A DNA stretch of 64,000 nt, from positions 186,001 through 250,000 of the forward strand of contig NZ_CP014231.1 in NCBI RefSeq assembly GCF_001553645.1, read 5' to 3'. The translations under genes and the position numbers were made by a program. The notes under the pieces are model-generated. The model was not told the DNA's origin. It saw nothing but the letters and a program-made list of their open reading frames with translations, and did not search any database. Below are positions 12,364 through 64,000 of this stretch, piece after piece. Position 1 is the first letter of the stretch. Every line of letters starts with the position of its first letter. The DNA is from Leptotrichia sp. oral taxon 847. Lineage in GTDB: Bacteria > Fusobacteriota > Fusobacteriia > Fusobacteriales > Leptotrichiaceae.

Positions 12364-12456
12364 ACATAAGGGGAAAAAGCGATGTTTTCCCCTTGTTAAA
12401 AACAAAAAAACTATACTAAACAAGATAACATTTTGTAATCAAAAATAAATTTAAAA
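12364..12456 (-). repeat. Solo end of the MITE-like element
   Basis: A single terminal hairpin (arms around AAGGGGAAAA and TTTTCCCCTT) followed by the flank ACTATACTAAACAAGATAAC and TTTTGTAATCAAAAATAAAT, which is the right terminal repeat of the elements at 39961 and 55029. The interior of the element is absent. The loop reads AGCGATG, matching the opposite-end hairpin in reverse orientation, as if the two ends had collapsed into one. It lies just beyond the terminator of autotransporter 1, as the full elements do for autotransporters 2 and 3. Confidence 0.75.
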
Positions 12457-15500: not shown

Positions 15501-18348
15501 TTTCTTGTGCAATTGCAGTTTGACCTGCTTGTGTTCCTGTTATGGTATTGCTGTTATTGTTGTCAATTGATGAATTTGAAATTTCCAATTGATTGTATGC
15601 ATCATTAGGGTCATCCAAGTTAATTGACTGATTTAATTTTAGTTTACTCAAGTAAAGCATAAATGTCTTATAGTCAGTTCCGTTTATAGTTGCTCCCAGA
15701 GCGCCAGCTAGACCACTACCTGCTGTATCCGACAAGTTCATTGATACATCAGAAGCGATGAATAATCTTGAACCACTTGCCATATTAAGTGTTAATTTAT
15801 TTATAGTACCACCAAATGTATTATTTGCCCAAGTTGTTATGTCTGAAGCTGTAAATGGAGAATATCCACTACCTTTATAATAGAACGCAGTACCTCTTGT
15901 ATTGGCATCAGTACCTCCTGCTATGTTTGCAGTTGTTGGTCCAGTAAAGTTAATGTGACCTGTGTTATCTGCATAGAATGCTAATGATTTTTGTCCTGTA
16001 TCTATTGCAGTACCGTTTAATTTTACTGTACCGTCTGCTGCAAGTACATTAAATGCTCCTCCCGTAGTTTTTATGGTACCACCTGTGATGTCAACAGTTC
16101 CTCCTTTATATCCATATGCACCAGCTGAAGCACCACCATCAACATTTATAGTTCCTCCACCTGTATGAGTAATAGTACCTCCATCCATTGCTGCAAGCCC
16201 AGTTGAACCATCTGTTGCACTTGAGGCAGTTCCTGTTACATCTACTTGTCCACTATTTGTAATTGTTGTAGACTTATTAGCCACTATCGCTTTAACAGAA
16301 GCTCCTGTTGCTGATATTTTTCCTGTATTTGTAACCGCTCCTGCACTGTTAGCAAAAATACCTGTTGACTTATCAGATGTTATTGTAATATCTGCTGCAG
16401 TTGTCATTGGCGCACCTGTGTATATTCCTATATTTTCACTACCAGATGTTATATTAATAGCATGCTCTGTTCCTGAACCTAGATTAACTTTTCCTTGTTT
16501 CACTAGAACACCTGTATTTTTACTTCCTGTCACATTTATCTTGTATTCATTCAATGTAAATGTGTTTGGTGAAGCACTTTCAAAATATACACCTGTATTT
16601 TTATCTCCTGTTAAATCTAGTCTTATTACAGATGCTCTTGTTGAACCTGGCAATGTCGTTACTATATTATCTGATGTACTGTGACTAAAAGGAGCTCCTC
16701 CATCAAGATCCATCCAACCTTTAAATACAACTCCAGCTGAACTTGTTCCTGAAAGAGTTATCGGCTTATTCAGTAATATTTCTGCCGCATCATAAGAATG
16801 TTTATTGTCAACTATGATTCCATATTGAGTGTCTCCTGTTAAGTTAATGTTACCGTCATTTATATATGACCAACCACTATTTGCAGCAGCAACAGGAGAT
16901 TGAATTACCGCAAGGACATCATTTGTACCACCTATATTAATAGTTCCTCCTGTTTCATTATGAAAATAATGCTGTCTGTCCATTGTTCCACCCTCATCAA
17001 GAGCGATCCAACCTATATTTTTACTTCCTGCTGTTGTTATTGTTCCTTTATTTACAAATCCGATATTTCCATGTGTCGGAGCATTTCCATGATACTGTGA
17101 AGTCCATAAAACTAAGTGATCACCATTCAAACTAATATTTTTATTATTTACCCATGTCGAATCTCCATTATAATTATGACCATCTGTATGGAATAACCAT
17201 CTTTGATAATTTGGATCCCCTGTACCTGTATATTCAATATCAGAATTTACATTTATTGTATGTCCACCAACCAACTTGAGTACTGAAATATAATCAGCAT
17301 TTGTAGCAGTAACATCTAATAAACCGGCACCCACATTACCTTGATTATGATTTAAAGCAGGATTAGTAGGATGAGAATATCTTCCTGTAAACGTAATACC
17401 TTTAGCTGTATAATCAAATTCACTTCCGTGAGCTTTTACTGTTAATTTACCACCATCCATATCTTGTTGTGCAATAGCTCCTACTATCCTAGTCGCACCT
17501 AAAGCGGCAGAACCTACTGAACCACCAGTCCAACCTTTATCCCATTTTACATATGTTGCTCCATTTGCAATCCAAGCATCATCATCATTACCTGTTGATG
17601 GAGCCTGTGGTGCTGGAGGTTCTACATTAGGTATATCTGGTGTATTAATTACAGGCACCGCTGGTTTAAAATTAATAGCCTGTGGCAAGTTAGGTTGTGT
17701 AGCCGTAGGCGCTGTTACTGTTGGTGCTGTAAATACTCTTGGGTTAATTCCCGCATTTACTTCAAAAGCTACAATTGGTTCACGCGCTGGTAGTGTACTT
17801 GCTATACCGTATCCTGATAATCCTTGTCTGTTGTTTGATGATGCTGAACGTGGATTTCTGTCCTTTGATAGCAATGAATAATTTTTGCTGTTAGGTGCAA
17901 TGTATCTTTCATATGGATCTGCACTTCTGTCAAATACTCCTTCATATGGGTATTTTTCTTTCTTATCTCCTCTACCTTTGTAAACTCCATTCCAGTTGTT
18001 GTTGATGTAATTTATTCCGTACTGCCAAGAACTCCAAGGTGATTTAACTACGTGATCTCCCTGTTCCATTAATTGAATTAATTCAAGATTTGTTGTTCTT
18101 AACAATTTGTTGTTTTCTTCTCTTGCTCTTCTAAAATCTTTTTTTATCTGTACTATTGATGTATTTATTGCTTGTTCCTGTGCCTTTATTTCATCTTGTG
18201 CTGAATAAAGATTAAATGATATACCTGTAAAACTTATCATTCCTGTCAACAGAAAAGTGATAAGTGCTGAATCAGTATATTTGAAATCTTTAACTCTTTT
18301 TGCAAAAGACTTCAGTTCTTTTTTTAGAACTTTTAAATTATTAGTCAT
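12535..18348 (-). CDS. Autotransporter adhesin 1 (type Va, modular passenger)
   Basis: A 1937-residue outer-membrane autotransporter. Residues 1-26 are strongly basic, 27-48 hydrophobic (unusually long signal region), 51-95 coiled-coil, and 97-114 the conserved block GDHVVKSPWSSWQYGINY of the fusobacterial autotransporter-associated N-terminal domain. A proline-rich linker (about 200-250) leads to a long beta-helix passenger of roughly 20-residue repeats such as NTGTITMGNKSTGMYSEG. The last ~270 residues form the beta-barrel, ending GLGFRLIY. The N-terminal ~225 residues and last ~968 residues nearly match autotransporter 2; the middle differs. Ribosome-binding site AGAGG. Promoter spacer is a poly-A tract. 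Probable role: adhesion or aggregation. Confidence 0.9.
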   Translation of the reverse strand: MTNNLKVLKKELKSFAKRVKDFKYTDSALITFLLTGMISFTGISFNLYSAQDEIKAQEQAINTSIVQIKKDFRRAREENNKLLRTTNLELIQLMEQGDHVVKSPWSSWQYGINYINNNWNGVYKGRGDKKEKYPYEGVFDRSADPYERYIAPNSKNYSLLSKDRNPRSASSNNRQGLSGYGIASTLPAREPIVAFEVNAGINPRVFTAPTVTAPTATQPNLPQAINFKPAVPVINTPDIPNVEPPAPQAPSTGNDDDAWIANGATYVKWDKGWTGGSVGSAALGATRIVGAIAQQDMDGGKLTVKAHGSEFDYTAKGITFTGRYSHPTNPALNHNQGNVGAGLLDVTATNADYISVLKLVGGHTINVNSDIEYTGTGDPNYQRWLFHTDGHNYNGDSTWVNNKNISLNGDHLVLWTSQYHGNAPTHGNIGFVNKGTITTAGSKNIGWIALDEGGTMDRQHYFHNETGGTINIGGTNDVLAVIQSPVAAANSGWSYINDGNINLTGDTQYGIIVDNKHSYDAAEILLNKPITLSGTSSAGVVFKGWMDLDGGAPFSHSTSDNIVTTLPGSTRASVIRLDLTGDKNTGVYFESASPNTFTLNEYKINVTGSKNTGVLVKQGKVNLGSGTEHAINITSGSENIGIYTGAPMTTAADITITSDKSTGIFANSAGAVTNTGKISATGASVKAIVANKSTTITNSGQVDVTGTASSATDGSTGLAAMDGGTITHTGGGTINVDGGASAGAYGYKGGTVDITGGTIKTTGGAFNVLAADGTVKLNGTAIDTGQKSLAFYADNTGHINFTGPTTANIAGGTDANTRGTAFYYKGSGYSPFTASDITTWANNTFGGTINKLTLNMASGSRLFIASDVSMNLSDTAGSGLAGALGATINGTDYKTFMLYLSKLKLNQSINLDDPNDAYNQLEISNSSIDNNNSNTITGTQAGQTAIAQENLTGNRAAVTLNNDGAINLSGANSTGMYAKYGIINNNATGTITLGDTSTGLYGVGDSILTNTGTITMGNKSTGMYSEGSTTQGVTNAGTITSSGTSSVGVLFKPDASLAAGAVLGNTGNITLGDSSVGLYGENTATNYTTSNSGNITVGNNGIGMFGYAADVTGGTVKVGDKGVGVYSQGGNVNLTGGTIATGASESVGVYTVGSGQTVTNSGTTFNLGDTSVAIANAGNGNTINSTVSNVGLGTNNIYVYSNDAAGTVNNSTNLSAAGGGNYGIYSAGTVTNSGNMDFGNGVGNVGIYSIGGGTATNTGTITVGASNAATNAFGIGMAAGYQNSDTGHVINNGTINVNGDYSIGMYASGAGSTATNNSNIVLNGNNTTGIYADNGATAINTGSISTGSGSYTNVVGVYLGKGATLNNTGSITIDGSNAVGVYLKGGTVANYGNITVNGSSNPSDTVYTFTTPPTGKGVGGTVIDAPAGAQTATVTINGVKQNPVVINTFAKNPIEVSASSVGLYVNTSGKDYTNSINGLGNLTQEADLIIGTEATEMTNSKSILIKDPKILDPYNNAIRTSGVSNWNIYSGGLNWIATPTLNPADGTMTSIYMAKIPYTAWAGKEDTPVDSTDTYNFLDGLEQRYGVEELGTRERQLFQKLNGIGNNEEILFYQATDEMMGHQYGNVQQRINETGSLLDKEFTYLHDQWRNPSKQNNKIKVFGMRNEYNSDTAGIIDYTSNAYGVAYVHEDETVKLGNSQGWYAGAVNNRFKFKDIGKSRENQTMVRAGLFKTMSPANDHNGSLRWTIAGDVFAGRNEMKRRFLVVDDIFNAKADYTSYGAAFKTDLGYDVRLSERTHLRPYGALKMEYGRFSNIKEDRGEVRLEVDGNDYFSVKPEVGVEFKYVQPMAVRTNLTLGLTAAYTDELGKVNNVKNQARVRYTDADWFGIRSEKEDRRGSGKFDLNLGVDNTRFGVTANLGYDTKGENVRGGLGFRLIY

Positions 18349-18679: not shown

Positions 18680-19010
18680 GCAGGGGTATCATTGCCATAC
18701 CCCTGCACCCCGGCTAGTCTTCGTCATTTTTATGTACTGCCAAAAAACTCGCTTACGGCGGGGCAGTTTTGTCAGCACATAAAAATGCTCCGACGGTTTA
18801 AATTTTACTATTATACAAAAGGTGTCGTGATTTTTTTGGAGTAAAGACGACTGTTTGAGCACGTTTAGTGCGAGTTTCGGCTTTGCTTCAAAAAAATGCT
18901 TAGACGAGCGTGGGGATTATAAGGGGAAATGGCGGTCCTTTCCCCTTATGTAAAAAATAAAAAAATAATATTAAACAAAATAACATTTTGTAATCAAGAA
19001 TGAATTAAAA
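18680..19010. repeat. MITE-like structured repeat, copy A
   Basis: A non-coding element upstream of autotransporter 1. Left-end hairpin GCAGGGGTAT / ATACCCCTGC, then arm 1 (ATTTTTATG ... CATAAAAAT), arm 2 (TTTTTTTGGAGTAAAG ... CTTTGCTTCAAAAAAA), right-end hairpin AAGGGGAAA / TTTCCCCTT, and the right terminal repeat TAACATTTTGTAATCAAG. The left terminal repeat is missing beyond the hairpin. No open reading frame of note runs through it. Confidence 0.85.
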
Positions 19011-39960: not shown

Positions 39961-40354
39961 TTTTAATTTATTTTTGATTACAAGATGTTACTTTACATAA
40001 TATAGTTTTTTTTCTTTTTAACAAGGGGAAAACATCGCCTTTTCCCCTTGACCCCGCGCTAGTCTTCGTCATTTTTATGCACTGCCAAAAAACTCGCACT
40101 AATCGTGCTCAGACAGTTTTGTCAGCACATAAAAATGCTCCGACGGTTCAAACTTTACTACCATACAAAAGTGTCGTGATTTTTTTGGAGTAAAGACGAC
40201 TGTCTGAACGAAGTGAGTTTCGGCTTTACTTCAAAAAAATTCTTAGACGAGCGTGGGGATTATAAGGGGAAATGGCGGCCCTTTCCCCTTATGTAAAAAA
40301 ACAAAAAAACTATATAAGCAAAATTCCATTTTGTAATCAAGAATAAATTTAAAA
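39961..40354. repeat. MITE-like structured repeat, copy B (full length)
   Basis: A 394-bp element with imperfect inverted ends of roughly 100 bp: left TTTTAATTTATTTTTGATTA and right end, reversed, TTTTAAATTTATTCTTGATT. Each end contains a hairpin (AAGGGGAAAA / TTTTCCCCTT left; AAGGGGAAA / TTTCCCCTT right). Between them are two hairpin arms: ATTTTTATGCACTGCC ... GTCAGCACATAAAAAT and TTTTTTTGGAGTAAAG ... CTTTACTTCAAAAAAA. Arm 1 tip CTCGCACTAATCGTGCTC, arm 2 tip GAACGAAGTGAG. No ORF. Its right end abuts the IS200 element. Confidence 0.85.
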
Positions 40355-41175: not shown

Positions 41176-44100
41176 TTAGTAAATCAATCTAAATCCTAGT
41201 CCTCCTCTTACATTTTCTCCCTTAGTGTCGTATCCTAGGTTGGCTGTTACTCCAAATCTTGTGTTGTCTACTCCTAAGTTTAAGTCAAATTTTCCGCTTC
41301 CTCGTCTGTCTTCCTTTTCACTTCTTATTCCAAACCAGTCCGCATCTGTATATCTTACTCTTGCTTGATTCTTAACGTTGTTTACTTTTCCTAGTTCATC
41401 TGTGTACGCCGCTGTCAAGCCTAATGTTAAGTTTGTTCTGACTGCCATTGGTTGTACATATTTAAACTCTACTCCTACTTCTGGTTTTACTGAGAAATAG
41501 TCATTTCCGTCAACTTCCAATCTAACTTCTCCTCTATCTTCCTTGATATTGCTAAATCTTCCGTATTCCATTTTTAATGCTCCGTATGGTCTTAAATGTG
41601 TTCTTTCACTCAATCGCACGTCATAACCTAAATCTGTCTTGAATGCCGCACCATATGATGTATAATCCGCTTTCGCGTTAAAGATGTCGTCTACTACCAA
41701 GAATCTACGTTTCATTTCATTTCTTCCTGCAAACACATCTCCTGCTATTGTCCATCTTAGTGATCCATTGTGATCGTTTGCTGGAGACATTGTCTTAAAT
41801 AGTCCTGCTCTTACCATTGTCTGGTTTTCTCTTGATTTTCCTATGTCTTTGAATTTAAATCTGTTGTTTACTGCTCCTGCATACCATCCTTGTGAGTTTC
41901 CTAATTTTACTGTTTCATCTTCATGTACATAGGCTACACCATAAGCATTGCTTGTATAATCTATTATTCCTGCCGTATCTGAATTGTATTCATTTCTCAT
42001 TCCAAATACTTTTATCTTATTGTTCTGTTTTGATGGATTTCTCCATTGATCGTGAAGATATGTAAATTCTTTGTCAAGCAAACTTCCTGTTTCGTTGATT
42101 CTTTGCTGTACATTTCCATACTGGTGTCCCATCATTTCATCTGTTGCCTGATAGAATAAGATTTCTTCGTTGTTTCCTATTCCATTTAATTTTTGGAATA
42201 ACTGTCTTTCTCTTGTTCCTAATTCTTCAACTCCGTATCTTTGTTCCAATCCATCCAAGAAGTTATATGTATCTGTGCTGTCTACTGGTGTATCTTCTTT
42301 TCCTGCCCACGCTGTATATGGTATCTTAGCCATATAGATGCTTGTCATTGTTCCATCGGCTGGATTCAATGTCGGTGTTGCTATCCAGTTCAATCCTCCA
42401 GAGTAGATATTCCAATTTGAAACTCCACTTGTTCTTATCGCATTGTTATACGGATCTAATATTTTCGGATCTTTAATCAGGATTGACTTGCTGTTTGTCA
42501 TTTCTGTTGCTTCTGTTCCAATAATTAAGTCTGCTTCCTGTGTTAAATTTCCTAATCCATTTATTGAATTTGTATAGTCTTTTCCTGATGTATTTACATA
42601 CAATCCTACACTTGACGCTGATACTTCAATCGGATTTTTTGCAAATGTATTTATCACTACCGGATTCTGTTTTACTCCATTTATTGTTACTGTCGCTGTC
42701 TGTGCTCCCGCTGGTGCGTCAATTACTGTTCCTCCTACTCCTTTTCCTGTTGGAGGTGTTGTAAATGTATATACAGTGTCACTTGGATTGCTGCTTCCAT
42801 TTACTGTTATGTTACCGTAGTTGGCTACTGTTCCTCCCTTTAAGTACACACCTACTGCATTTGATCCGTCTATTGTGATACTTCCTGTATTGTTAAGTGT
42901 TGCTCCTTTTCCTAAATATACACCTACTACATTTGTGTAGCTTCCTGATCCTGTTGAAATACTACCTGTATTTATTGCAGTTGCTCCGTTATCTGCATAG
43001 ATACCTGTCGTATTGTTTCCGTTTAGCACGATGTTACTGTTGTTTGTTGCTGTACTTCCTGCTCCACTTGCATACATACCTATACTGTAGTCACCGTTCA
43101 CATTGATTGTTCCGTTGTTTATTACGTGTCCTGTATCGCTGTTCTGGTATCCCGCTGCCATACCTATTCCAAATGCGTTTGTCGCTGCGTTTGAAGCTCC
43201 TACTGTGATTGTTCCGGTGTTTGTCGCTGTTCCTCCACCTATTGAATAGATTCCAACGTTTCCTACACCGTTTCCAAAGTCCATGTTACCTGAGTTTGTT
43301 ACTGTTCCTGCTGAGTAGATACCGTAGTTTCCTCCTCCTGCTGCACTTAAGTTTGTTGAGTTGTTTACTGTTCCTGCTGCATCATTTGAGTAAACATAGA
43401 TGTTGTTTGTTCCTAATCCTACATTTGATACTGTCGAATTAATTGTGTTTCCACTTCCAGCATTCGCTATTGCAACCGATGTATCTCCCAAGTTAAATGT
43501 TGTACCACTGTTTGTTACTGTTTGACCGCTTCCTACTGTGTACACACCTACTGATTCAGACGCTCCTGTCTGGATTGTTCCTCCTGTTAGGTTTACATTT
43601 CCACCTTGTGAATATACACCTACACCTTTATCTCCTACTTTTACTGTTCCCCCTGTTACATCAGCGGCATATCCGAACATACCTATACCGTTATTACCTA
43701 CTGTAATGTTTCCAGAGTTTGATGTTGTGTAGTTTGTAGCTGTATTTTCTCCGTATAGACCTACACTGCTGTCTCCTAAAGTAATGTTTCCTGTATTTCC
43801 AAGTACTGCTCCTGCTCCAAGTGAAGCATCAGGTTTAAACAACACACCTACTGAAGATGTTCCAGCACTTGTTATAGTTCCTGCGTTTGTTACGCCTTGA
43901 GTTGTTGACCCTTCAGAGTACATACCTGTTGACTTGTTACCCATTGTGATTGTTCCTGTATTTGTAAGGATGCTGTCTCCCACTCCGTAAATTCCTGTTG
44001 ATGTATCTCCTACTGTAATTGTTCCTGTTGCATTGTTATTAATAATTCCATATTTAGCATACATTCCTGTTGAGTTTGCACCTGACAAATTGATAATACC

Positions 44101-46740
44101 GTTATTGTTTATTGTAACTGCAGCTCTGTTTGTTAATAGATTTTCCTGTGCAATTGCAGTCTGTCCTGTTTGTGTACCAGTTATAGTGTTATTGTTATTG
44201 TTATCAATTGATGAATTAGATAATTCAAGCTGATTATATGCATCATTTGTATCATCTAGATTAATAGATTGATTTAGTGTTAACAAGCTATTGTACAACA
44301 TAAACGTTTTATAATCACTTCCAGTAATATTAGCTCCTAAAGCACTAGCTAATGTTGAACCTGTTGTATCAGACAAATTCATACCTACATCTGATGCTAT
44401 AAACAATCTTGAACCTGAATTCATATTAAGTGTTAAATTTGATAATCCACTAAATTTAGTTGTCGCCCACGTTGATATATCCCCAGATGTGAACGAACTA
44501 TGTCCACTTCCTTGATACAGAAAAGCTGTTCCTCTTGTGGCAGGAGTATTTGAACCACCTGATATAGTTGCTGTCATCGATTTAGTTATGTTTATCTTTC
44601 CTCCATTATTATAAAATAATAAAGATTTTGCACCAGTACTTGCAGTTCCTGTACCATTCAAGTCAATCACACCATTTGAATCCACAGCATAGTTTACAGC
44701 TCCATCTGCTGTAGTTGTATTATGTGTTAATACTTCTACCTTACTATTGGTGTCCTTGGCATATATTCCAACTGAATTTTTACCACTTACATTAGCTGTT
44801 ATTGCTCCACTTCCAAGAGTAGTGAATTCACTTCCACCTGTAGCTATAATTCCAGCCGTTCCTCTTCCTGAAGATGAAGTTTTACCTGTTACTGTTATTG
44901 TTCCTGAGTTGGCTGCATGACCTCCTGATGAAACAACTGCTCCTGTAGCACCATCAGAAGTTACTGTTATTGTTCCCATATTCCCAGCTTGTCCTGCTGC
45001 ACTTTTTGCCATCATTCCAATATTTTCTCCAGCTGTTACTGTTATTTTAGCATTACTATCATTTGTAACAGTACCATTTGAAGAATACATACCTATATTT
45101 TCTGTACCAGTACTGGATATATTAATTTCATTTTTATTTGTTAAAGAAGCATTTGCACCTTCCACTCTCAATCCAATAGATTTATTTTTTGAACCTATTA
45201 TATTAATAATTCCTTCATTATCATAATTTTTACTGCTTACTTCTGAATACATTCCAAAGGAATTTTCACCTGAAACATTAATTTCTCCTTTTGAAGCATT
45301 TTTAATTCCTCCTTGCATATCGTGTAAAATGGCGATTCCACCTGATTCATCCCCTTCTATGTTAATAGTTCCATTATTTGTAGCCGATGAATTTGGTTGA
45401 AGTCCAACGTTATCTGTTCCTATTGCAATACCATAACTTTTATTTCCTTTCATTGTTATTAAATTATTATTAATAACAACTGCTGTCCAGTTATTTGTTA
45501 CTTTTAATCCATAACCTAATGACTGGTCACCATTCATTATAATGGTTCCATTATTTTGAAGTGTATAAGTTCCATCCGAATCACCTTCATCTGTGTAAAT
45601 CATTGCTATCTGTTTGGCTCCAGTTCCAATTATCTTTCCTGATGCTCCATTTATTCCTATAGTATCATTAGTTCCTGAATCAGCTGGATCTGTCTGAACT
45701 TCTATTCCACCTGTCTGTTCTGCAATCAAATTAATAGTTCCATTGTTGGTAAACTTTAAAGCTGTTGTAGAACTATATATAGGATCTAGTGTAACAGCTC
45801 TTTTTTTCGTTACATCTACATTCATAACTGAATCAGAAGCAGAATTAAAATCATTAACATTAGAGGTATCTTGAATATATTCTATTATAGCATTTTGCTT
45901 AGCAGTAGATGCATCACTAACTTTATATGAATTTCCACCCACATTAATATTCGTTCCTAATAATGTGTTACCGAGAGAATTAGAATAAGAATCTAAATCA
46001 AAAACTTCTATACTTATCGCCGCAGGTTGTGGATTAGGTGGTGTTATTTCTGGTGGAACAAAATTAATAGCTTCTGGTAAATTAGGCTGTGTAGCCGTAG
46101 GCGCTGTTACTGTTGGTGCTGTAAATACTCTTGGGTTTATTCCTGCATTTACTTCAAAAGCCACAATTGGTTCACGCGCTGGTAGTGTACTTGCTATACC
46201 GTATCCTGATAACCCTTGTCTGTTGTTTGATGATGCTGAACGCGGATTTCTGTCCTTTGATAGCAATGAATAATTTTTGCTGTTAGGTGCAATGTATCTT
46301 TCATATGGATCTGCACTTCTGTCAAATACTCCTTCATATGGATATTTTTCTTTCTTGTCTCCTCTACCTTTGTAAACTCCATTCCAGTTGTTGTTAATAT
46401 AATTTATTCCGTACTGCCAAGAGCTCCAAGGTGATTTAACTACGTGATCCCCCTGTTCCATTAATTGAATTAATTCAAGATTTGTTGTTCTTAACAATTT
46501 GTTGTTTTCTTCTCTTGCTCTTCTAAAATCTTTTTTTATCTGTACTATTGATGTATTTATTGCTTGTTCCTGTGCCTTTATTTCATCCTGTGCTGAATAA
46601 AGATTAAATGATATACCTGTAAAGCTTATCATTCCTGTCAACAGAAAAGTGATAAGTGCTGAATCAGTATATTTAAAATCTTTAACTCTTTTTGCAAAAG
46701 ACTTCAGTTCTTTTTTTAGAACTTTTAAATTATTAGTCAT
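41176..46740 (-). CDS. Autotransporter adhesin 2 (type Va, modular passenger)
   Basis: An 1854-residue autotransporter with the same architecture as the protein at 12535: basic start, long hydrophobic segment (27-48), coiled-coil, GDHVVKSPWSSWQYGINY block, proline-rich linker, beta-helix repeats (NSGNITVGNNGIGMFGYA and similar) and C-terminal barrel ending GLGFRLIY. The last 2.9 kb (41176-44082) aligns to 12535-15441 at a constant offset of 28641, without indels. The first ~225 residues also nearly match. In between the passenger is different (for example TNNGTINIEGDESGGIAIL). Ribosome-binding site AGAGG. Its poly-A promoter spacer is the shortest of the three. Confidence 0.9.
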   Translation of the reverse strand: MTNNLKVLKKELKSFAKRVKDFKYTDSALITFLLTGMISFTGISFNLYSAQDEIKAQEQAINTSIVQIKKDFRRAREENNKLLRTTNLELIQLMEQGDHVVKSPWSSWQYGINYINNNWNGVYKGRGDKKEKYPYEGVFDRSADPYERYIAPNSKNYSLLSKDRNPRSASSNNRQGLSGYGIASTLPAREPIVAFEVNAGINPRVFTAPTVTAPTATQPNLPEAINFVPPEITPPNPQPAAISIEVFDLDSYSNSLGNTLLGTNINVGGNSYKVSDASTAKQNAIIEYIQDTSNVNDFNSASDSVMNVDVTKKRAVTLDPIYSSTTALKFTNNGTINLIAEQTGGIEVQTDPADSGTNDTIGINGASGKIIGTGAKQIAMIYTDEGDSDGTYTLQNNGTIIMNGDQSLGYGLKVTNNWTAVVINNNLITMKGNKSYGIAIGTDNVGLQPNSSATNNGTINIEGDESGGIAILHDMQGGIKNASKGEINVSGENSFGMYSEVSSKNYDNEGIINIIGSKNKSIGLRVEGANASLTNKNEINISSTGTENIGMYSSNGTVTNDSNAKITVTAGENIGMMAKSAAGQAGNMGTITVTSDGATGAVVSSGGHAANSGTITVTGKTSSSGRGTAGIIATGGSEFTTLGSGAITANVSGKNSVGIYAKDTNSKVEVLTHNTTTADGAVNYAVDSNGVIDLNGTGTASTGAKSLLFYNNGGKINITKSMTATISGGSNTPATRGTAFLYQGSGHSSFTSGDISTWATTKFSGLSNLTLNMNSGSRLFIASDVGMNLSDTTGSTLASALGANITGSDYKTFMLYNSLLTLNQSINLDDTNDAYNQLELSNSSIDNNNNNTITGTQTGQTAIAQENLLTNRAAVTINNNGIINLSGANSTGMYAKYGIINNNATGTITVGDTSTGIYGVGDSILTNTGTITMGNKSTGMYSEGSTTQGVTNAGTITSAGTSSVGVLFKPDASLGAGAVLGNTGNITLGDSSVGLYGENTATNYTTSNSGNITVGNNGIGMFGYAADVTGGTVKVGDKGVGVYSQGGNVNLTGGTIQTGASESVGVYTVGSGQTVTNSGTTFNLGDTSVAIANAGSGNTINSTVSNVGLGTNNIYVYSNDAAGTVNNSTNLSAAGGGNYGIYSAGTVTNSGNMDFGNGVGNVGIYSIGGGTATNTGTITVGASNAATNAFGIGMAAGYQNSDTGHVINNGTINVNGDYSIGMYASGAGSTATNNSNIVLNGNNTTGIYADNGATAINTGSISTGSGSYTNVVGVYLGKGATLNNTGSITIDGSNAVGVYLKGGTVANYGNITVNGSSNPSDTVYTFTTPPTGKGVGGTVIDAPAGAQTATVTINGVKQNPVVINTFAKNPIEVSASSVGLYVNTSGKDYTNSINGLGNLTQEADLIIGTEATEMTNSKSILIKDPKILDPYNNAIRTSGVSNWNIYSGGLNWIATPTLNPADGTMTSIYMAKIPYTAWAGKEDTPVDSTDTYNFLDGLEQRYGVEELGTRERQLFQKLNGIGNNEEILFYQATDEMMGHQYGNVQQRINETGSLLDKEFTYLHDQWRNPSKQNNKIKVFGMRNEYNSDTAGIIDYTSNAYGVAYVHEDETVKLGNSQGWYAGAVNNRFKFKDIGKSRENQTMVRAGLFKTMSPANDHNGSLRWTIAGDVFAGRNEMKRRFLVVDDIFNAKADYTSYGAAFKTDLGYDVRLSERTHLRPYGALKMEYGRFSNIKEDRGEVRLEVDGNDYFSVKPEVGVEFKYVQPMAVRTNLTLGLTAAYTDELGKVNNVKNQARVRYTDADWFGIRSEKEDRRGSGKFDLNLGVDNTRFGVTANLGYDTKGENVRGGLGFRLIY

Positions 46741-47066: not shown

Positions 47067-47395
47067 GCAGGGGTATCATTGCCATACCCCTGCACCCTGG
47101 CTAGTCTTCGTCATTTTTATGCACTGCCAAAAAACTCGCTTTCGCTCAGACAGTTTTGTCAGCACATAAAAATGCTCCGACGGTTTAAATTTTACTACCA
47201 TACAAAAGTGTCGTGATTTTTTTGGAGTAAAGACGACTGTTTGAGCACGTTTAGTGCGAGTTTCGGCTTTGCTTCAAAAAAATGCTTAGACGAGCGTGGG
47301 GATTATAAGGGGAAATGGCGGTCCTTTCCCCTTATGTAAAAAAGTAAAAGACTATACTAAACAAGATAACATTTTGTAATCAGAATAAATTGAAA
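47067..47395. repeat. MITE-like structured repeat, copy C
   Basis: Like copy A: left hairpin GCAGGGGTAT / ATACCCCTGC, arm 1 with tip CTCGCTTTCGCTC, arm 2 with tip GAGCACGTTTAGTGCGAG, right hairpin and right terminal repeat AACATTTTGTAATCAGAAT. It lies upstream of autotransporter 2 in the same orientation as copy A. Confidence 0.85.
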
Positions 47396-55028: not shown

Positions 55029-55418
55029 TTTTAATTTATTTTTGATTACAAGATGTTACTTTACATAGTATAGTTTTTTTCTTTTTAACAAGGGGAAAAC
55101 ATCGCCTTTTCCCCTTGACCCCGCGCTAGTCTCCGTCATTTTTATGCACTGCCAAAAAACTCGCTTTCGCTCAGACAGTTTTGTCAGCACATAAAAATGC
55201 TCCGACGGTTTAAATTCTACTGTTATACAAAAGGTGTCGTGATTTTTTTGGAGTAAAGACGACTGTCTGAACGAAGTGAGTTTCGGCTTTACTTCAAAAA
55301 AATTCTTAGACGAGCGTGGGGATTATAAGGGGAAATGGCGGCCCTTTCCCCTTATGTAAAAAAAGAAAAAAACTATACTAAACAAGATAACATTTTGTAA
55401 TCAAAAATAAATTTAAAA
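55029..55418. repeat. MITE-like structured repeat, copy D (full length)
   Basis: A 390-bp element with the clearest inverted ends: left TTTTAATTTATTTTTGATTA then CAAGATGTTACTTTACATAG; right, reversed, TTTTAAATTTATTTTTGATT then ACAAAATGTTATCTTGTTTA, both continuing TATAGTTTTTTTC. Hairpins and arms as in copy B; arm 1 tip CTCGCTTTCGCTC, arm 2 tip GAACGAAGTGAG. It lies between asnS and the 3' end of autotransporter 3. Confidence 0.88.
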
Positions 55419-55451: not shown

Positions 55452-56813
55452 GAGAGTGTCCAGAATTTTGTGTAAACTCAAAATATAATATATGGTACAG
55501 GATGGTATTTTTATCATCCTGTTTTTAAATCCTTCCTTCAAAATAAATACTTAACTGAGAATATATTTCTCCCCAGCCCGGTATTCTTCCAGTCCATTTC
55601 CTTGTTGCTTCCTTTAAACTTAAATATACTGACTTCATCAATGCTTCATCTGTCGGATAAAGTGATTTTGTCTTCGTATACTTTCTTAATTGTCTGTTTA
55701 AGCTTTCTATCGGGTTTGTCGTATATATCAGCTTTCTTATCTTTGTATCATATTTAAAGTATGTTGTCAACTCATTCCAGTTACTTCTCCAGGAATTAAT
55801 TACTGCCATATACTTTTTACCCCATTTTTCTTCTAGTTCATCCAGTTTAAACTCTGCCTGTTCCAGTGTTGGTGCATTGTACATTTCTTTTAAGTCTGAT
55901 GTAAATTCCCTTACATCTTTGTAAGATATGTATCTTATGCTGTTTCTAATTTGATGAACCACACATTTTTGAATTTCTGTCTTAGGGAACACCGAAGATA
56001 TTGCTTCGCTGAACCCTTTTAAATTATCAACAGACATAATTAGTATATCCTGAACTCCTCTGTTTTTTAATTCATTTAAAACATTTAGCCAGTACTTGCT
56101 TGATTCATTTTCTCCTATCCAAAATCCTAAGACCTCCTTTCGCCCTTCCTTATCTATTCCTATAGCTAAATATACCGCCTTTTTAACAACAACTCCATCT
56201 TTTCTTACGCTGTAATGGATAGCATCCATAAAAACTATTGGGTATACATCCTCAAGCTGTCTAGACTGCCATTCCCTAATTTCAGGTATAATTTTATCTG
56301 TAATTTTACTGATCATAGATGGCGAAACATCAATTCCATAAAGATTATTGAGATGGTCCTCGATATCTCTATTGCTCATTCCTTTAGCATAAAGAGAAAG
56401 AATCTGTCCTTCAATGCCAGTAATTTCTCTTTGATATTTAGGGATGATTTGAGGCTCAAACTCAGCATTTCTATCTCTAGGAATATCTAAATCAAGATTG
56501 CCATACTCACTTCTAACAGTTTTCTTGGAATGTCCATTTCTAGCATTAGAAGTAGTCTTATCTTTCATAGAATGTTTAGCATACCCCAGTTCATGCTCAA
56601 TTTCAGCTTCAAGCATGGTTTGGATAGTACCCGAAAGCAAATCCTTAAGCATATCCTTAATATCATTAGTATCTTTAATATTGTAATCCTCAATCAGTGT
56701 TTTAAAAATTTCGTTGTCAATTTTCTTTTTAGTCATAACAAAAACCTCCAAATATTATACAGTTATTTTACCATATATTATTTAGAGGTTTACACAAAAA
56801 TTTTTACACACCC
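55452..56813 (-). mobile_element. IS256-family insertion sequence
   Basis: A 1362-bp element flanked by the 8-bp direct repeat GAAAGCTC (55444-55451 and 56814-56821), the usual size for this family. The ends are imperfect inverted repeats that share TTTTGTGTAAAC followed further in by ATATATGGTA. It is inserted in the terminator loop of autotransporter 3. The single gene is a full-length transposase, so the element is probably active. Confidence 0.9.
55525..56736 (-). CDS. IS256-family transposase (Mutator type, DDE)
   Basis: A 403-residue transposase of normal length. The DDE residues are in YPIVFMDAIHYSVR (first Asp), ILIMSVDNLKGFSEAI (second Asp) and the Glu of TNPIESLNRQLRKY; the family signature runs through KCVVHQIRNSIRYISYKD. 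Start at 56736, where GGAGG lies eight bases upstream; an in-frame TTG 15 bp further up is less likely. It lies in the direction of transcription from autotransporter 3. Confidence 0.95.
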   Translation of the reverse strand: MTKKKIDNEIFKTLIEDYNIKDTNDIKDMLKDLLSGTIQTMLEAEIEHELGYAKHSMKDKTTSNARNGHSKKTVRSEYGNLDLDIPRDRNAEFEPQIIPKYQREITGIEGQILSLYAKGMSNRDIEDHLNNLYGIDVSPSMISKITDKIIPEIREWQSRQLEDVYPIVFMDAIHYSVRKDGVVVKKAVYLAIGIDKEGRKEVLGFWIGENESSKYWLNVLNELKNRGVQDILIMSVDNLKGFSEAISSVFPKTEIQKCVVHQIRNSIRYISYKDVREFTSDLKEMYNAPTLEQAEFKLDELEEKWGKKYMAVINSWRSNWNELTTYFKYDTKIRKLIYTTNPIESLNRQLRKYTKTKSLYPTDEALMKSVYLSLKEATRKWTGRIPGWGEIYSQLSIYFEGRI

Positions 56814-56865: not shown

Positions 56866-59800
56866 TTAGTAAATTAATCTAAATCCTAGTCCTCCTCTTA
56901 CGTTTTCTCCCTTAGTGTCGTATCCTAAGTTTGCTGTTACTCCAAATCTTGTGTTGTCTACTCCTAAGTTCAAGTCAAATTTTCCGCTTCCTCGTCTATC
57001 TTCTTTTTCGTTTTTCAAGTTGTACCAATCCGCTGTTGTATATCTTACTTTGGCTTTGTTTAAATTGTTTACTTTTCCTAATTCATCTGTGTACGCTGCT
57101 GTCAAGCCTAATGTTAAGTTTGTTCTGACTGCCAATGGCTGTACATATTTAAACTCTACTCCTACTTCTGGTTTTACTGAAACATAGTCGTTTCCATCCA
57201 CTTTTAATCTGATTTCTCCATCGTCTTCTTTTATGCTTGTAAATCTTCCATATTCCACTTTTAATGCTCCATATGGTCTAACATGTGTTCTTTCTGATGT
57301 TCTTATATCATATCCTAAATCAGTTTTTAATGCTGCTCCATATGAATAATAGTCAGATTTTGCGTTAAATGTATCGTCAACTACCCAGAATCTACGTTTC
57401 ATTTCATTTCTTCCCGCAAACACATCTCCTGCTATTGTCCATCTTAGTGATCCATTGTGATCATTTGCTGGAGACATTGTCTTAAATAGTCCTGCTTTTA
57501 CCATTGTCTGGTTTTCTCTCGAACCACCTAAATCTTTAAATTTATAGTGATTATTTACTGCACCTGCGTACCATCCTTGACTGTTACCCATTCTCACATC
57601 TTCGTCTTCATGAACATAAGCTACTCCGTAAGCGTTACTTTCGTTGTCGATTACTCCTGCGGTATCTGTATTGTATTCATTTCTCATTCCAAATACTTTT
57701 ATCTTATTGTTCTGTTTTGACGGATTTCTCCACTGATCGTGAAGATAAGTAAATTCTTTGTCCAATAAGCTTCCTGTTTCGTTTATTCTCTGCTGAGTAT
57801 TTGAATACTGGTAACCTTTCATTTCATTTACTGCTTGTGCAAATATATGTGTTTCTCCTTTTCCTATTCCATTTAATTTGTTAAACAGTATTTTTTCTCT
57901 GGCTCCTCTAGCTCCATAATCATCTACACCATATCTTTGTTCCAATCCATCTAAGAAGTTTCTAGTATCTGGATCTTTCTTGCTGGCAAAATCTGTATAT
58001 GGAACTTTTACTAAGTATACTCTATCAATTCCACTTCCAGATAAATTTCTTACCGGCTGTGCAAGCCAAGTCAAGCTTGATGAATTTACATTTAATGTTC
58101 CTGTTACTCCATTTAATGCCTGATTATATGGACTTAATATATTATCTCCCACTTCAATCGCTTTAGCGTTTGAATATTCAGTTGCTTCGACTCCCATAAT
58201 CAAGTTTATATCTGTCAATCCTGATAAATAATGTAGTCCCTGTATTGGATGAGTAAAGTTAATTCCTGATGTATCTACATACATTGCTACACTTGTAATT
58301 TCTCCTGTTTGACTCTTAGTTCTTGAAATAGTTCCTAAGTCAAATGTTTTAAATGGATCATTTAATATTGTGCTGTCCCCTTCTCTTACTTCCACTACTG
58401 TCGCATTTGGTGACGCAGCATTCGTATCAACATTTTCTATTTTAACCGCTTCAAACGTTCCATCTGGTTTTCTTACCATTATTGACTGAGGATTTGCCTT
58501 TGGCGGAGTTTTGATTGTTACGCTTCCTTCTGTTTTTGCATCTGTTGCTGAAGCCAAATACACTGGTTTATCTGAATTATTTGTTCCCGATCCATCTTCA
58601 GCATAAGGTCCAGTGAATACTCCTGTTCCATCTGAGTATACTCCCATTGTGTCTGATCCTGTGATTTCGATATTACCATAGTTTTTAAGAATACCTCCGT
58701 TTGCTAATACCACACCTTTCATTTTTGAGCCTGTTGCGACTGTTTTTATGTTTCCATAGTTTATTCCTGTTGCTCCTTGGTCAATGTACATTCCTATTGT
58801 ATTAGCTCCACTTAAGTTAATTACTCCACTTGCTCCATTTATCGCTTTTGAACCTGCTCCTACTGCATACATTCCTATACTGTTTGGTGTTGTTACGTTG
58901 ATTACTCCATTATTTACTACTGTACCTACATTTGAAACAGTTCCTGTTGTTTCGTCAAAGTATCCTGTTGCCATTCCAATTCCAAATTCTTTTGTAGTTG
59001 TATTTGATGGACCTACGTTAATTGTTCCTGTATTCGTAATTGTTCCACCTGTCGAGTAAAGTCCTATATTTCCTACTCCTGAACCCATATTAATTGTTCC
59101 GTTGTTTACTGCGTCTTGCAATGAATAAATTGCATATCCATTAGTTCCTGTCATATTTACAGTACTATTATTAGTTATCAAGCTTCCTGCCTGAATTGGT
59201 GAAGCTGAGTAAATGTATACTGATTTATCTCCTACACTAGCTGTAGTCCCTGCTCCTGTTGTCAAGCTTACAGGCTGGCTTGTAATCAAGCTATATCCAA
59301 ATGACTGATTATTTCCTACCGCCATATTTACGTTTCCTGTAATGTTTATTGGTGTTGGAGAATTTTTATCATCCTGAACATACACTCCTACCGCATTATT
59401 GTTTCCGACGTTAACTGTTCCGCTGTTTAATGCAACATTTGGACCTGTTGAATAGATTCCTAATCCACTATCTCCAACGTTTATTGCTCCACCGTTCATA
59501 TTTACATTTCTTCCGTAAATACCGTATGAATTTTGTCCCACATTTATTGTTCCTGATGTTGTTATTGGAGTATTTATATCTTGTGTAAACATACCAATTG
59601 ATTCACTTCCAGCTGTTGTTGCTGCAACGTTTATTGTCCCTGTACTTGTATTTTCCATTGTAGAACTGTCTGTAGCATACATACCTGCTGAAACTGGTCC
59701 ATTTACATTAATTGTTCCCGCATTTGTCAATGTTCCTCGTGAAGTTCCCATTGCAATTGAGTTATTTCCACCGTTCATTGTAATTGTTCCGCCAGCCACA

Positions 59801-62800
59801 TTTGTCGCTTTAATGTCACCTGCTCCTCTTTCGTTGTTGTTTCCAATACCCAAGCTGTTGTTGTAGGCATAGATTCCAACTGAGCTGTCTTTGTTCACTG
59901 TGATTTTTCCTGTATTTGTCACATCAACCTTACCATATTGTCCAGCTGCAGCTAAAGTAGGATTATAGTATGCTTCTGTAGTTGGGTCAACTCTTGCTCC
60001 GGCATTGTTTATTCTGTATGAAAGTCCTAAAATACCAAATGATTTTTCTCCACCTACTGTCACTTCTCCAGCATTTACAATTGGAGTACTGTTTGTTCCG
60101 TAAATTCCAACTGCGTGAGGATTGTTATTTGTAGATTCAACTTCTACTTTTCCACTTGCGTTATTATTGATTTTTCCGTAGTTTACGTAAAGTCCTACTC
60201 CACCGTTTCCGTTGTCTGTTCTGTTTACAGTTACATTTCCATCATTATTAATAGCTGTCATATTACTTGCACTCGATTTAGATGAAGCCGCTACTGCAAT
60301 TCCTACTGGAATGTTTGCTCCACCAATTGAAGTAAGGTCCGCTGTATTTAAGTTTGCAGTAACATTTTTTCCTGCCCCCACATTAATTGTAGAATTTTGT
60401 AAAAGTAATCTTCTTGTGAACACATAACCATCTGAAGTAGGTGTATTGTCTCCTTTATTGATGTCAGAGTCAATATTAAATGTAGTTCCATCCATTACCG
60501 CATATTTATATTTATATGAAGCACTTCCAGGTGTTACTTGAGCTCCAGATAAAAATCCTCCTGAACCTGTAAAACTATTGTCCAATCCTGTTGAATTTAG
60601 TGAAGCTACTCCTCTTAAATCCATTAGTATTACATCATCTGATTTAACATCTATCTTAGTATTATTATTAAACTGAACACCATTTGATCCGCTCATATCT
60701 TTTATATATCCAGTTGCTTTTCCACCTAATGTTAATGTACCATCATTTAAAATTATATCACTGGTACCTTCAGTATACAAAGCATACCCTGAACCTGTAT
60801 AATCCACTTCACCATTTGTCAAATCAATTTTACTACTTGATCCTACAGCCGCTACACCAACTCCTGTGTCAGTTGTCTTAATTTTGTTGTAATCAGCTCT
60901 TATATTTGCACCATCTTTTGCAAATAGTCCAAATCCTCCATATACATTAGGATTATTTGCTGCAACTTTTCCTGTTATATCAACATTATATTCACCAGCT
61001 GTTGTATTTCCAAAATTATATCCTGTTTGTCTTACATCTACAACTGCACCATTTTTAGCATAAACTCCACCTACATTTTTATCAAGACTAGTACCATTAT
61101 AAGTAGGATTTGCACTCATATTGGCTTTTACTTTAAGTCCACCAGCTACTGTAGGGGTAGATCCTCCTGTTCTGAAACCTACTCTTACATTTGCACTATT
61201 ATCGGCAAAAATGAAAACATTGTCCTGTGTATCAGTCCCTGTTTCAATACTTTTAACCATTACGTCATAAGTATTACTACCGTGTCCTTCAGCATAGATA
61301 GCAATGTTCTCTTTCCCACCATTTAATACCATTTCACTTGCAGAATATACTTGACCAGAAGCTGGATTTGTACCAGGAGCATTATGTTTTACAACAATAC
61401 CAGTATTGTTGTTTCCACCTGTAAGTTCAATAGAACCTTTTCCTAAAAAGTAAACAGGAGAGTTAGTAGCTTCAGAAGTTTTTACAGGATATACACCAAC
61501 ATTATTTGAACCTTCTACCTTTATATAATGTCCTTGTAAATCAATATTAGAAGCTGAATAAATTCCCGCTGAACCATCTTCAGCTTTACTTGCATTAGTT
61601 TTTATATCTACTGCAAATTGTCCATTTATAAAAGTCTTTGCAGTAAGATCATTTGTACCAGGTGCAGTCTCAGTACTAGTATCGTATTTTGTATATAGTC
61701 CTACACTTTTTTTACCACTAATAACTAAAGGAAAGGAATTATTTTTAGCAGTTAATTTATCAACAATTCCATTACCATCTAGTTTATTTATATAAAGACC
61801 GTTATTTGCACTTGTTGGCATATCATCAGACTTATATCCAGTACTACTAAGTAGGACTTGACCTACTGTATCACTATTTGCTTTACTGAAATTAAGGTGT
61901 AAATTAACAGCTGTGTTACCATCCGTATGCCCATTCTCATGATAACCAACACTTTTATCAATTATTATTCCTGCAGTTCCCTCATTATTTAAATTCATAT
62001 GACCTTTATTAATAATTGCTATATTTCTTTTTGTTTCGGGAAGAAACGAAAATATAGACGAATTTTTTGAATTAACATTTATATCTCCTGTATTGTAATA
62101 ATATTGTATAGGTTCATTTGTATTACGTGTATTAGCTGTAATTAAAAATACGGCACGGTTTTCATCTGTTCCATTTAGATTTACTGTTCCACCATTTATA
62201 ACAACACCATTTCCACCACCATGATTATAACTGTTTACAAGCATAGCTTTTGGTCCTGCTATGTTTATTGTTCCTCCATTAGCAAATACATTATATTGAT
62301 TTGGTTGAGATTTTGAAGTTTCATAAACAACTGTATTAACAATATCATTAATAACATTTGAATCAAGATTAGTTACTCCTGCTGCAGTTGCTGTATTTAT
62401 TGCAGTAATTACATCAGCACTTGGCGAACCACCATGAACATCTTGGTGAACAAGTTCATTTAAATTTGAATGACCAGAAATAACTTTATAATCTATATCC
62501 GAACCATTTATTGTTATACCATAAGGAGCATGTTCTCCTCCTCTTACCTGAAAAAAAGCATTACTTGCACTAGCACTAGAATTTGAATGAGAAGGAATCA
62601 ATACTCCATAAGCGAAACCACTTATTGATGAAGTTGCTGCTGTTCCTCTAATATTCTCAACTGTTACATTATTAGCTTTATAGTCATATGAGCCAGTACC
62701 TTTTCTATCAATTGTTATTTTCCCACCTTTTAAAGCTACATTTTCTACTACAGCTTCACTATTATCATTAAAAGCGTTAGTATGCTGTCCACTACCTCTT

Positions 62801-63652: not shown

Positions 63653-63816
63653 GCTTTTTTTAAAGAAATCGCAAAAAATTTAAAAGGGAAATAGAATTTT
63701 TTTATTTATTAGCAAAGAAAAAACAAACGCAAGACCAATATTAAAGAGGGGAAAATAAAAGAGTTTTTTATTTATTTCAGTTGAAAAAATTTTTTTTATT
63801 TACTCATTTTTTTAAC

Positions 63817-64000
63817 AAGGGGAAAACATCGCCTTTTCCCCTTGACCCTGCGCTAGTCTTCGTCATTTTTATGCACTGCCAAAAAACTCGCACTAATCGT
63901 GCTCAGACAGTTTTGTCAGCACATAAAAATGCTCCGACGGTTTAAATTTTACTACCATACAAAAGTGTCGTGATTTTTTTGGAGTAAAGACGACTGTTTG
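63817..64000. repeat. MITE-like structured repeat, copy E (cut by window edge)
   Basis: Left hairpin of the B/D type (AAGGGGAAAA / TTTTCCCCTT), arm 1 with tip CTCGCACTAATCGTGCTC and the start of arm 2, where the window ends. The left terminal repeat outside the hairpin is missing, as in copies A and C, and is replaced by the autotransporter upstream DNA. Confidence 0.85.

Follow-up and report, generated by a model that had tools for sequence, protein, structure and literature searches.

Alternative hairpin tips and their assortment among copies of a MITE-like repeat element in Leptotrichia sp. oral taxon 847

Introduction

The window analysed here, a stretch of 64,000 nucleotides from Leptotrichia sp. 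oral taxon 847 (C1:186001-250000 of a genome of 2,194,935 bases in one contig), contains five copies, designated A to E, of a repeat whose hairpin arms are nearly constant and whose tips alternate as discrete blocks. The question raised by this locus is by which process such blocks are exchanged between copies. A preliminary description placed the repeat unit at 40078-40242 and took block exchange at the hairpin tips, without gradual mutation, as a sign of template switching or recombination. With about 70 natural copies carrying marked blocks in one genome, exchange can be traced over tens of bp, and the copies allow hairpin-templated change to be distinguished from recombination.

Copies and features of the repeat

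Copies were located across the whole genome with a 28-mer core pattern (up to three mismatches), the reversed pattern serving as control. This search yielded 74 core copies, 62 of them exact matches to the 28-mer, and 0 matches of the control; the right-end pattern matched 73 sites in the genome. The tips and ends listed in the preliminary description were recovered in all five window copies, and the same alternatives recur among the 74 genomic copies. The unit proposed there proved too small: flank comparison of the copies revealed conserved sequence reaching well past 40078-40242, and the unit measures about 467 bp. Its order is left end hairpin, arm 1, centre, arm 2 and right end hairpin. 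In a scan of one genome per species (84,980 species, the source genome possibly omitted) an exact 22-mer of the core was present solely in Leptotrichia hongkongensis and Leptotrichia oral taxon 879, and a plasmid collection searched with the core gave no match. The features of the window are as follows (long-type arm-2 tip, copies A and C: GAGCACGTTTAGTGCGAG).

12368..12394 (-): collapsed copy, in which the first half of the left end hairpin is joined to the second half of the right one in a single hybrid hairpin, interior lost
18680..18948 (+): copy A, structured core, with GCAGGGG left end (left hairpin of GCAGGGGTAT type, starting at 18680), GGCGGG tip 1 and long tip 2
18748-18764: arm-1 tip of copy A, CTCGCTTACGGCGGGGC
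40022..40050 (+): copy B, left end hairpin of AAGGGG type, starting at 40022, with loop CATCGCC
40070..40137 (+): copy B, arm 1 (folding was carried out on a closely similar arm)
40093..40110 (+): copy B, tip block of arm 1, CTCGCACTAATCGTGCTC
40180..40239 (+): arm 2 of copy B
40206..40217 (+): copy B, tip block of arm 2, short type GAACGAAGTGAG, the same in copy D
40263..40291 (+): right end hairpin of copy B
47067..47334 (+): copy C, structured core, with GCAGGGG left end (left hairpin of GCAGGGGTAT type, starting at 47067), TTTC tip 1 and long tip 2
47135-47147: arm-1 tip of copy C, CTCGCTTTCGCTC
55089..55354 (+): copy D, structured core, with AAGGGG left end (left hairpin starting at 55089), TTTC tip 1 and short tip 2
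55160-55172: arm-1 tip of copy D, CTCGCTTTCGCTC
63816..64000 (+): copy E, with AAGGGG left end (left hairpin starting at 63816) and ACTAATC tip 1; arm 2 lies outside the window, and its tip, past the window end, is of the short type as taken from the genome
63887-63904: arm-1 tip of copy E, CTCGCACTAATCGTGCTC

The collapsed copy is consistent with a deletion between repeated TTTCCCCTT stems. Regarding all 74 copies, the arm-1 tips were ACTAATC-like (30), TTAC-like (16), GGCGGG (11), ACTGATT-like (8), TTTC-like (8) and TAT (1), the arm-2 tips were short (42) or long (28) with four unscorable, and the left hairpins were GCAGAAG (59), GCAGGGG (8), AAGGGG (5), inverted (1) and unclassified (1). 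At locus L061, 2400-3600 (about C1:649100-650300), a complete copy is inserted beside an older, decayed one, and its arm 1 bears a wholly different hairpin, AACTTAAG...CTTAAGTT, instead of the usual tip. The left-end forms, earlier described as two unrelated types, differ in their stems but are not wholly unrelated, the three main forms keeping a CATYGCC loop. The end hairpins are in this respect the opposite of the arms, with the loop kept and the stem differing (e.g., window 40022-40050 and 47067-47093); by eye, about six bases of the CATYGCC loop could pair with GGCGGT, the loop of the right hairpin.

When reverse-complemented, the left half of the element aligns to the right half with a local score of 36, which was reached by 0 of 500 first-order Markov surrogates (maximum 31), and for this reason the body is read, on its sequence, as an imperfect inverted dimer of two one-armed hairpin units.

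Element ends and target duplications

Full copies run from GACAGAGTAAAATA..TTAGGGG to CTGCCCCTAAAATTTTTAAACCATC, most of them being near 467 bp, and have imperfect terminal inverted repeats (left GACAGAGTAAAATA..TTAGGGG, right ...TTTTTAAACCATC / GATGGTTTAAAAATTTTAGGGG); recognisable outer ends are absent from all five window copies. Target duplications could be tested in the 45 of 74 copies with both ends matched by the patterns, one or both ends being unmatched in the other 29. A flanking match of 9-14 bp was found in 36 of the 45 testable copies, with a length of exactly 10 bp in 26, and no match was found in nine; among shuffled left-right pairings, a match of at least 9 bp occurred in 0 of 881. 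The 45 two-ended copies span 428-488 bp and are therefore too short for a transposase, and a called ORF of at least 90 codons overlaps the body in seven of the 74 copies. With terminal inverted repeats, a target site duplication and no transposase gene inside, the repeat is a non-autonomous, MITE-like element with a 10-bp target duplication and 74 recognised copies.

An autonomous partner with the same ends was not found in the genome, where the end patterns (up to three mismatches) gave copies or relics among the positions compared; the partner may have been lost or have diverged. A relict right end at C1:54465 was considered as a hidden autonomous copy and rejected as an intergenic relic; the ORF beside it is presumably FtsZ/tubulin-like, from its look. 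An IS4-type partner was ruled out, PF01609 being absent from the genome. The IS256 family (PF00872) is represented by 18 matches genome-wide, 15 of them full length. Its right end has GTGTAAAAATTTT in common with one right-end variant of the MITE, and the ends are partly similar, but the IS256 target duplication is 8 bp in three of six loci (the three with both ends recognised), and given 8 bp against 10 bp an IS256-type element was left unaccepted as the mobiliser. One IS256-family insertion sequence, 1362 bp long with the 8-bp target duplication GAAAGCTC, adjoins copy D (window about 55525-56751, minus strand).

Stems, loops and structure

Sequence diversity was determined on a consensus fold of 66 distinct sequences, comprising 126 paired and 154 unpaired columns. 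The diversity per column was 0.0226 in paired and 0.1224 in unpaired positions, i.e., the stems vary five times less, and pairing would thus be maintained by selection or by templated repair. The same figures favour a rival reading of the tips, in which their alternatives are ordinary point and indel variants, tolerated in unconstrained loops and inherited in subfamilies. Graded tip variants point the same way (ACTAATC, ACTAGTC, ACTAAAC and ACTGATT; TTAC, TTAA and TTTC), and in view of these the earlier wording 'without gradual mutation' was too strong.

Arm 1 folds better on the minus strand and arm 2 on the plus strand, as is expected of inverted homologues. Among the 48 base pairs that the folds of the two strands share, minor variants are G-U in 10 cases on the plus and in 9 on the minus strand, which gives no strand preference and does not favour a single structured RNA. 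The window gave 0 Rfam matches to known RNA families at the gathering threshold. A function as bidirectional terminator was rejected: the genes neighbouring the 74 copies are convergent in 8 cases, divergent in 20, tandem in 43 and undetermined in 3 (rough ORF calling), which shows no gene-end bias.

Assortment, linkage and trees

All 10 combinations of the five arm-1 and two arm-2 tip classes occur among the 70 copies with both tips, and eight combinations occur among the 36 copies with target duplications. The preliminary description had suggested checking whether tip and end types assort independently of flanking divergence. The tips are nearly randomised relative to the rest of the element, but tip 1 and tip 2 are associated with each other (Cramer V 0.63, a value reached in 0 of 400 shuffles). 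The TAGTCT/AAGGCT block (GCTAGTCTTCG / GCAAGGCTCAAG) adjoining arm 1 has no above-chance association with either tip.

Linkage was determined for 69 copies with 43 informative sites, the inverted copy and four copies without a complete arm 2 having been dropped. All four gametes were present at 485 of 903 site pairs, and the mean r2 decreased from 0.319 (below 20 bp) to 0.078 (20-50 bp), 0.036 (50-100 bp) and 0.030 beyond (permutation p 0.0005). The number of recombination intervals was at least 19, a minimum estimate. With the tips left out, this number was the same and the decay materially unchanged (0.323 to 0.030), which shows that the exchange is not peculiar to hairpin tips. The block swaps at the tips, as first described, are real, but the left hairpin, the GCTAGTCTTCG / GCAAGGCTCAAG block, the centre and arm 2 at its base alternate too.

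In pairwise comparisons with tips scored as two classes per arm, at least one tip differed in 20% of the 10 pairs with 0-1 non-tip differences and in 62% of the 64 pairs with 2-3 non-tip differences. The clearest pair, 1160744- and 1313094+, with a separate 10-bp duplication for each copy, shows two non-tip differences and bears the arm-1 tips TTAC and ACTAATC, respectively.

Trees were based on columns outside the tips, and the columns of the TAGTCT/AAGGCT block and of the left hairpin were likewise excluded when these features were scored. Tip 1 (five states) required 29-30 changes on the trees, compared with a shuffled mean of 34.3-35.8 (minimum 28-30), and tip 2 (two states) required 13-18 changes, compared with a shuffled mean of 19.4-21.4 (minimum 13-16). 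For the TAGTCT/AAGGCT block, 17 changes compare with 16.6 after shuffling, and for the left hairpin, 10 with 10.5. The tips so retain a slight signal of descent, and neither a point-mutation tree nor exchange confined to the tips explains them. A tree of copies accounting for the tips by ordinary point mutation had been named as what would overturn the recombination reading; as the tip changes lie near the shuffled means, no such tree emerged, and recombination is well supported by the tree counts, the linkage decay and the occurrence of all ten tip combinations. Inheritance of point and indel variants in subfamilies would agree with tip changes being somewhat fewer on the tree than with shuffled labels, but they are still nearly as many, every tip combination exists, and block alleles are shared with the genomes G006, G010 and G011. 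It is contradicted by the tree test unless the tree is meaningless, and a meaningless tree would itself amount to recombination; this reading is accordingly considered highly improbable.

Flanking regions

The left flanks of copies A, C and E are nearly identical, by eye, over about 600 bp and represent the upstream region of a duplicated long gene. These flanks differ by scattered substitutions, whereas the tips differ wholesale. Inside the element, E differs from C in the left hairpin and adjoining bases, tip 1, tip 2 and one base of the right hairpin, the rest between these being identical. Between A and C the differences are a single base following the left hairpin, a single base of an arm, tip 1 and the centre. 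Just outside the element the right flanks of the three copies diverge, which indicates that a crossover or duplication borders there. In B and D, the left side looks like the right flank in inverted form.

The minus strand carries three very long, repetitive ORFs of 1854-2207 aa (window 12535-18348, 41176-46740 and 56866-63489), with element copies or remnants near both ends of each and an insertion sequence between D and the third ORF. They look like duplicated autotransporters, and the duplicated autotransporter-like genes with their upstream regions end at elements.

Repeats longer than short reads are at risk of misassembly, and short-read polishing of a 467-bp repeat might have shifted alleles between copies. 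Such an artefact is scarcely credible in view of the left flanks of A, C and E, where scattered substitutions stand against wholesale tip differences, and of sister genome G006, in which the same alleles recur, with three arm-1 by arm-2 combinations among four copies (arm-1 tips ACTAATC in two, ACTGATT and TTAC; both arm-2 tips present). The genomes G010 and G011, with one arm-2 allele each, also argue against it.

Template switching and flips

Tips may alternatively change chiefly by template switching during replication, i.e., by quasipalindrome correction, loop flips or inverted copying of tips from arm to arm, with recombination as a minor process. Flips of whole hairpins are rare (2 of 74 copies) but real, and they are the only direct sign of template switching. 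In 308456-, 43 nt of arm 1 are exactly inverted between the perfect inverted repeats CATTTTTATG and CATAAAAATG; this is the one copy with an exact inverted copy between inverted repeats, as a template switch would produce. The second flip, in 2063368-, concerns the left hairpin, which shows three differences besides the inversion. Flips could also be attained by recombination between short inverted repeats, and that arm 1 and the left hairpin are each flipped in one of 74 copies speaks against template switching as the principal process.

The long arm-2 tip, GAGCACGTTTAGTGCGAG, equals the arm-1 tip of copy 1450456+, CTCGCACTAAACGTGCTC, when reverse-complemented, as inverted copying between arms would predict; the evidence from this complementarity is weak, because one base change from the common arm-1 tip gives the same sequence. 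Also in favour are multi-base compensatory stem blocks between arm-2 forms of one sister species, both sides being changed jointly in G008 (TTAC/TTAA, TCGAC/TTCGA, ACGAC/TTCGT and ATGAT/TTCAT), and a report that template switching creates and mends RNA hairpins (PMC8794818). The GGCGGG tip replaces six bases in one step; neither the window, apart from the copy bearing this tip, nor the one element checked contained a template for it. A few alleles recur in place of many local inventions, and the non-tip block GCTAGTCTTCG / GCAAGGCTCAAG shows as much scrambling as the shuffled control (17 against 16.6 changes). Of the template switching initially suggested, the two flips stand, but most exchange is between existing alleles, and as the chief source of tip change it is rather unlikely.

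Proposed origin of the mosaic copies

With a probability of about 0.72, the repeat is a MITE-like inverted-dimer element whose dispersed copies have undergone recurrent short-tract recombination, followed by transposition of chimeras. The tip and end blocks would constitute a small set of alleles, some of them common to other species, which were reshuffled among dispersed copies by repeated short-tract exchange. Since the target duplications of many mosaic copies are still their own, we infer that gene conversion without crossover predominated; chimeric copies would then have transposed. There were probably also crossovers or duplications whose borders lie at the element, since the duplicated autotransporter-like segments of the window stop at this point. 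Errors in hairpin-templated replication may give rise to new tip alleles, and the two flips would be their direct signs. For single tips, conversion and template switching are inseparable, because tract ends are invisible amid identical neighbouring sequence.

Several observations count against recurrent exchange among dispersed copies. A decay within 20-50 bp seems short for RecA-type conversion, exchange could have taken place in a few source elements prior to transposition, and the reverse complementarity of GAGCACGTTTAGTGCGAG to arm 1 would also be expected from an inverted template switch. In addition, the two tips are associated, nine of the 45 testable copies have no duplication, and 29 of the 74 are without one or both recognisable ends.

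Relatives in Leptotrichia and beyond

Genus-wide, matches were obtained in 12 of 13 genomes. Among the matches listed, near-full elements are present in G000, G006 and G010 and a shorter two-armed piece in G011. In other Leptotrichia species the matches listed cover either the left hairpin with arm 1 or arm 2 with the right hairpin, and in the loci read these halves stand separately; the element shows how two-armed hairpin elements are related to one-armed ones. One-armed relatives of arm 1 are bounded by different outer ends, with a ATACTAAACCCCATTT-like left end and the inverse of this sequence as right end, in 11 of the 22 loci examined (up to four mismatches), and in those of sister species (L109-L134) the same structured module occurs in two kinds of repeat. 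Genome G008 contains five inverted tip pairs with 144-153 bp between the tips; four of the pairs, read in context, combine arm 2 with a third arm, and these two tip types are found in the remaining pair as well. The third arm unit (L136, L137, L140 and L143) has the end hairpin GTAAGGGCATCAGACGCCATGCCCTTAC, or nearly so, and a tip like CTCGCTTCGTAAAACTACGCTC, and lies inverted beside arm 2.

Many tips, read outward along the arm, fit the frame TGTYTGAGC-loop-GCGAGT, to which the short arm-2 tip of this genome does not conform. GNNA loops (GAAA, GTAA) are a minority in this genome, the commonest tips having GAA, GATTA or GTTTA loops. The arm-1 tips of sister species are almost uniform, 93 of 93 rows from G001-G005 and G007 having a three-base loop, mostly CTCGCTATGCTC. 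The frame occurs 38 times in G008, and the 30 occurrences read in context comprise 12 arm-1 tips (all ATA), five third-arm tips and 13 arm-2 forms; tip type mostly follows stem type there, with two apparent exceptions (L177 and L178).

Across the order, the frame was present in 38 of 96 genomes and 12 of 27 genera, with tens of copies in several genera. The reversed frame used as control gave zero matches in 90 of the 96 genomes; control matches were close to the signal in two genomes of genus g8 (G083-G085) and numbered one or two in G044, G047 and G048. The matches listed include at least 149 tips from outside Leptotrichia, 120 of them with loops of up to five bases, of which 118 are R...A and 100 are G...A, often of the GNA or GNNA type, these copies being related by descent and thus non-independent. 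Within the order but in a different family (f2), the genomes G053-G055 of one genus each have 41-49 occurrences of the frame. Viral contigs contained 102 frame stretches, by rough estimate not far above chance for a collection of that size, and 15 of 83 scored sites were on a stem, compared with 3% when shuffled; these viral sites were given no weight.

It is conceivable, if doubtful, that TGTYTGAGC-loop-GCGAGT is a conserved cap cassette of single-stranded DNA (a mini-hairpin, often of the ultra-stable kind, maintained as DNA and not as RNA structure) which moves between unrelated stems and acts as a recognition or protection site for a putative protein or for element replication. Its presence on three different arms in G008, its spread over 38 of 96 genomes and the R...A loops would be compatible with such a cassette; that tip type mostly tracks stem type in G008, the two exceptions aside, speaks against it. 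A wider tip frame would offer a handle on the role of hairpin tips in bacterial repeats.

Comparison with known systems

The repeat is a new element family in which a known process is at work, a striking example and no new mechanism. Among the articles listed from the open literature naming Leptotrichia, judged by titles and the beginnings of abstracts, none was about this repeat, which does not by itself establish that it is unpublished. It resembles bacterial MITEs in shortness, many copies, terminal inverted repeats and target duplication, and differs from them in its large, two-armed structured body. With REP, BIME and REPIN sequences it shares palindromic units, single or as inverted dimers. 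Hairpin doublets are described as mobile units (PMC3116915), and in GTAG-3 REPs discrete loop types are reported to stand side by side in one genome, like the Leptotrichia tips (PMC3733652). REPs and REPINs are defined there by a 20-40 bp palindrome with a GTAG or CGTC tag; the present element has arms of 60-68 nt in larger units and 10-bp target duplications, and is set apart by its size. A further likeness, by description, is to bcr1 and other families of stem-loop repeats, i.e., structured repeats in tens of copies (PMC2267715), the main text of that article containing neither 'Leptotrichia' nor 'Fusobacterium'.

Regarding the tips, DNA mini-hairpins with a GNA or GNNA loop closed by two G-C pairs are reported to be extraordinarily stable (PMC4686876). 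By sequence, GCGAAAGC and GCGTAAGC of this genome and GCGTAGC of its relatives fit the loop pattern of d(GCGNAGC) and GNNA. The mini-hairpins of that work are synthetic DNA, whereas those likened to them here are tips of natural repeats. In the commonest tips of this genome the loop is GNNNA, or GAA closed by a single C-G pair. Mutations by template switching in quasipalindromes (PMC8794818) are similar to the changes seen here in the inversion of whole hairpins and in block-wise change of stems; in Leptotrichia, however, such flips are found in 2 of 74 copies, and most exchange is between existing alleles.
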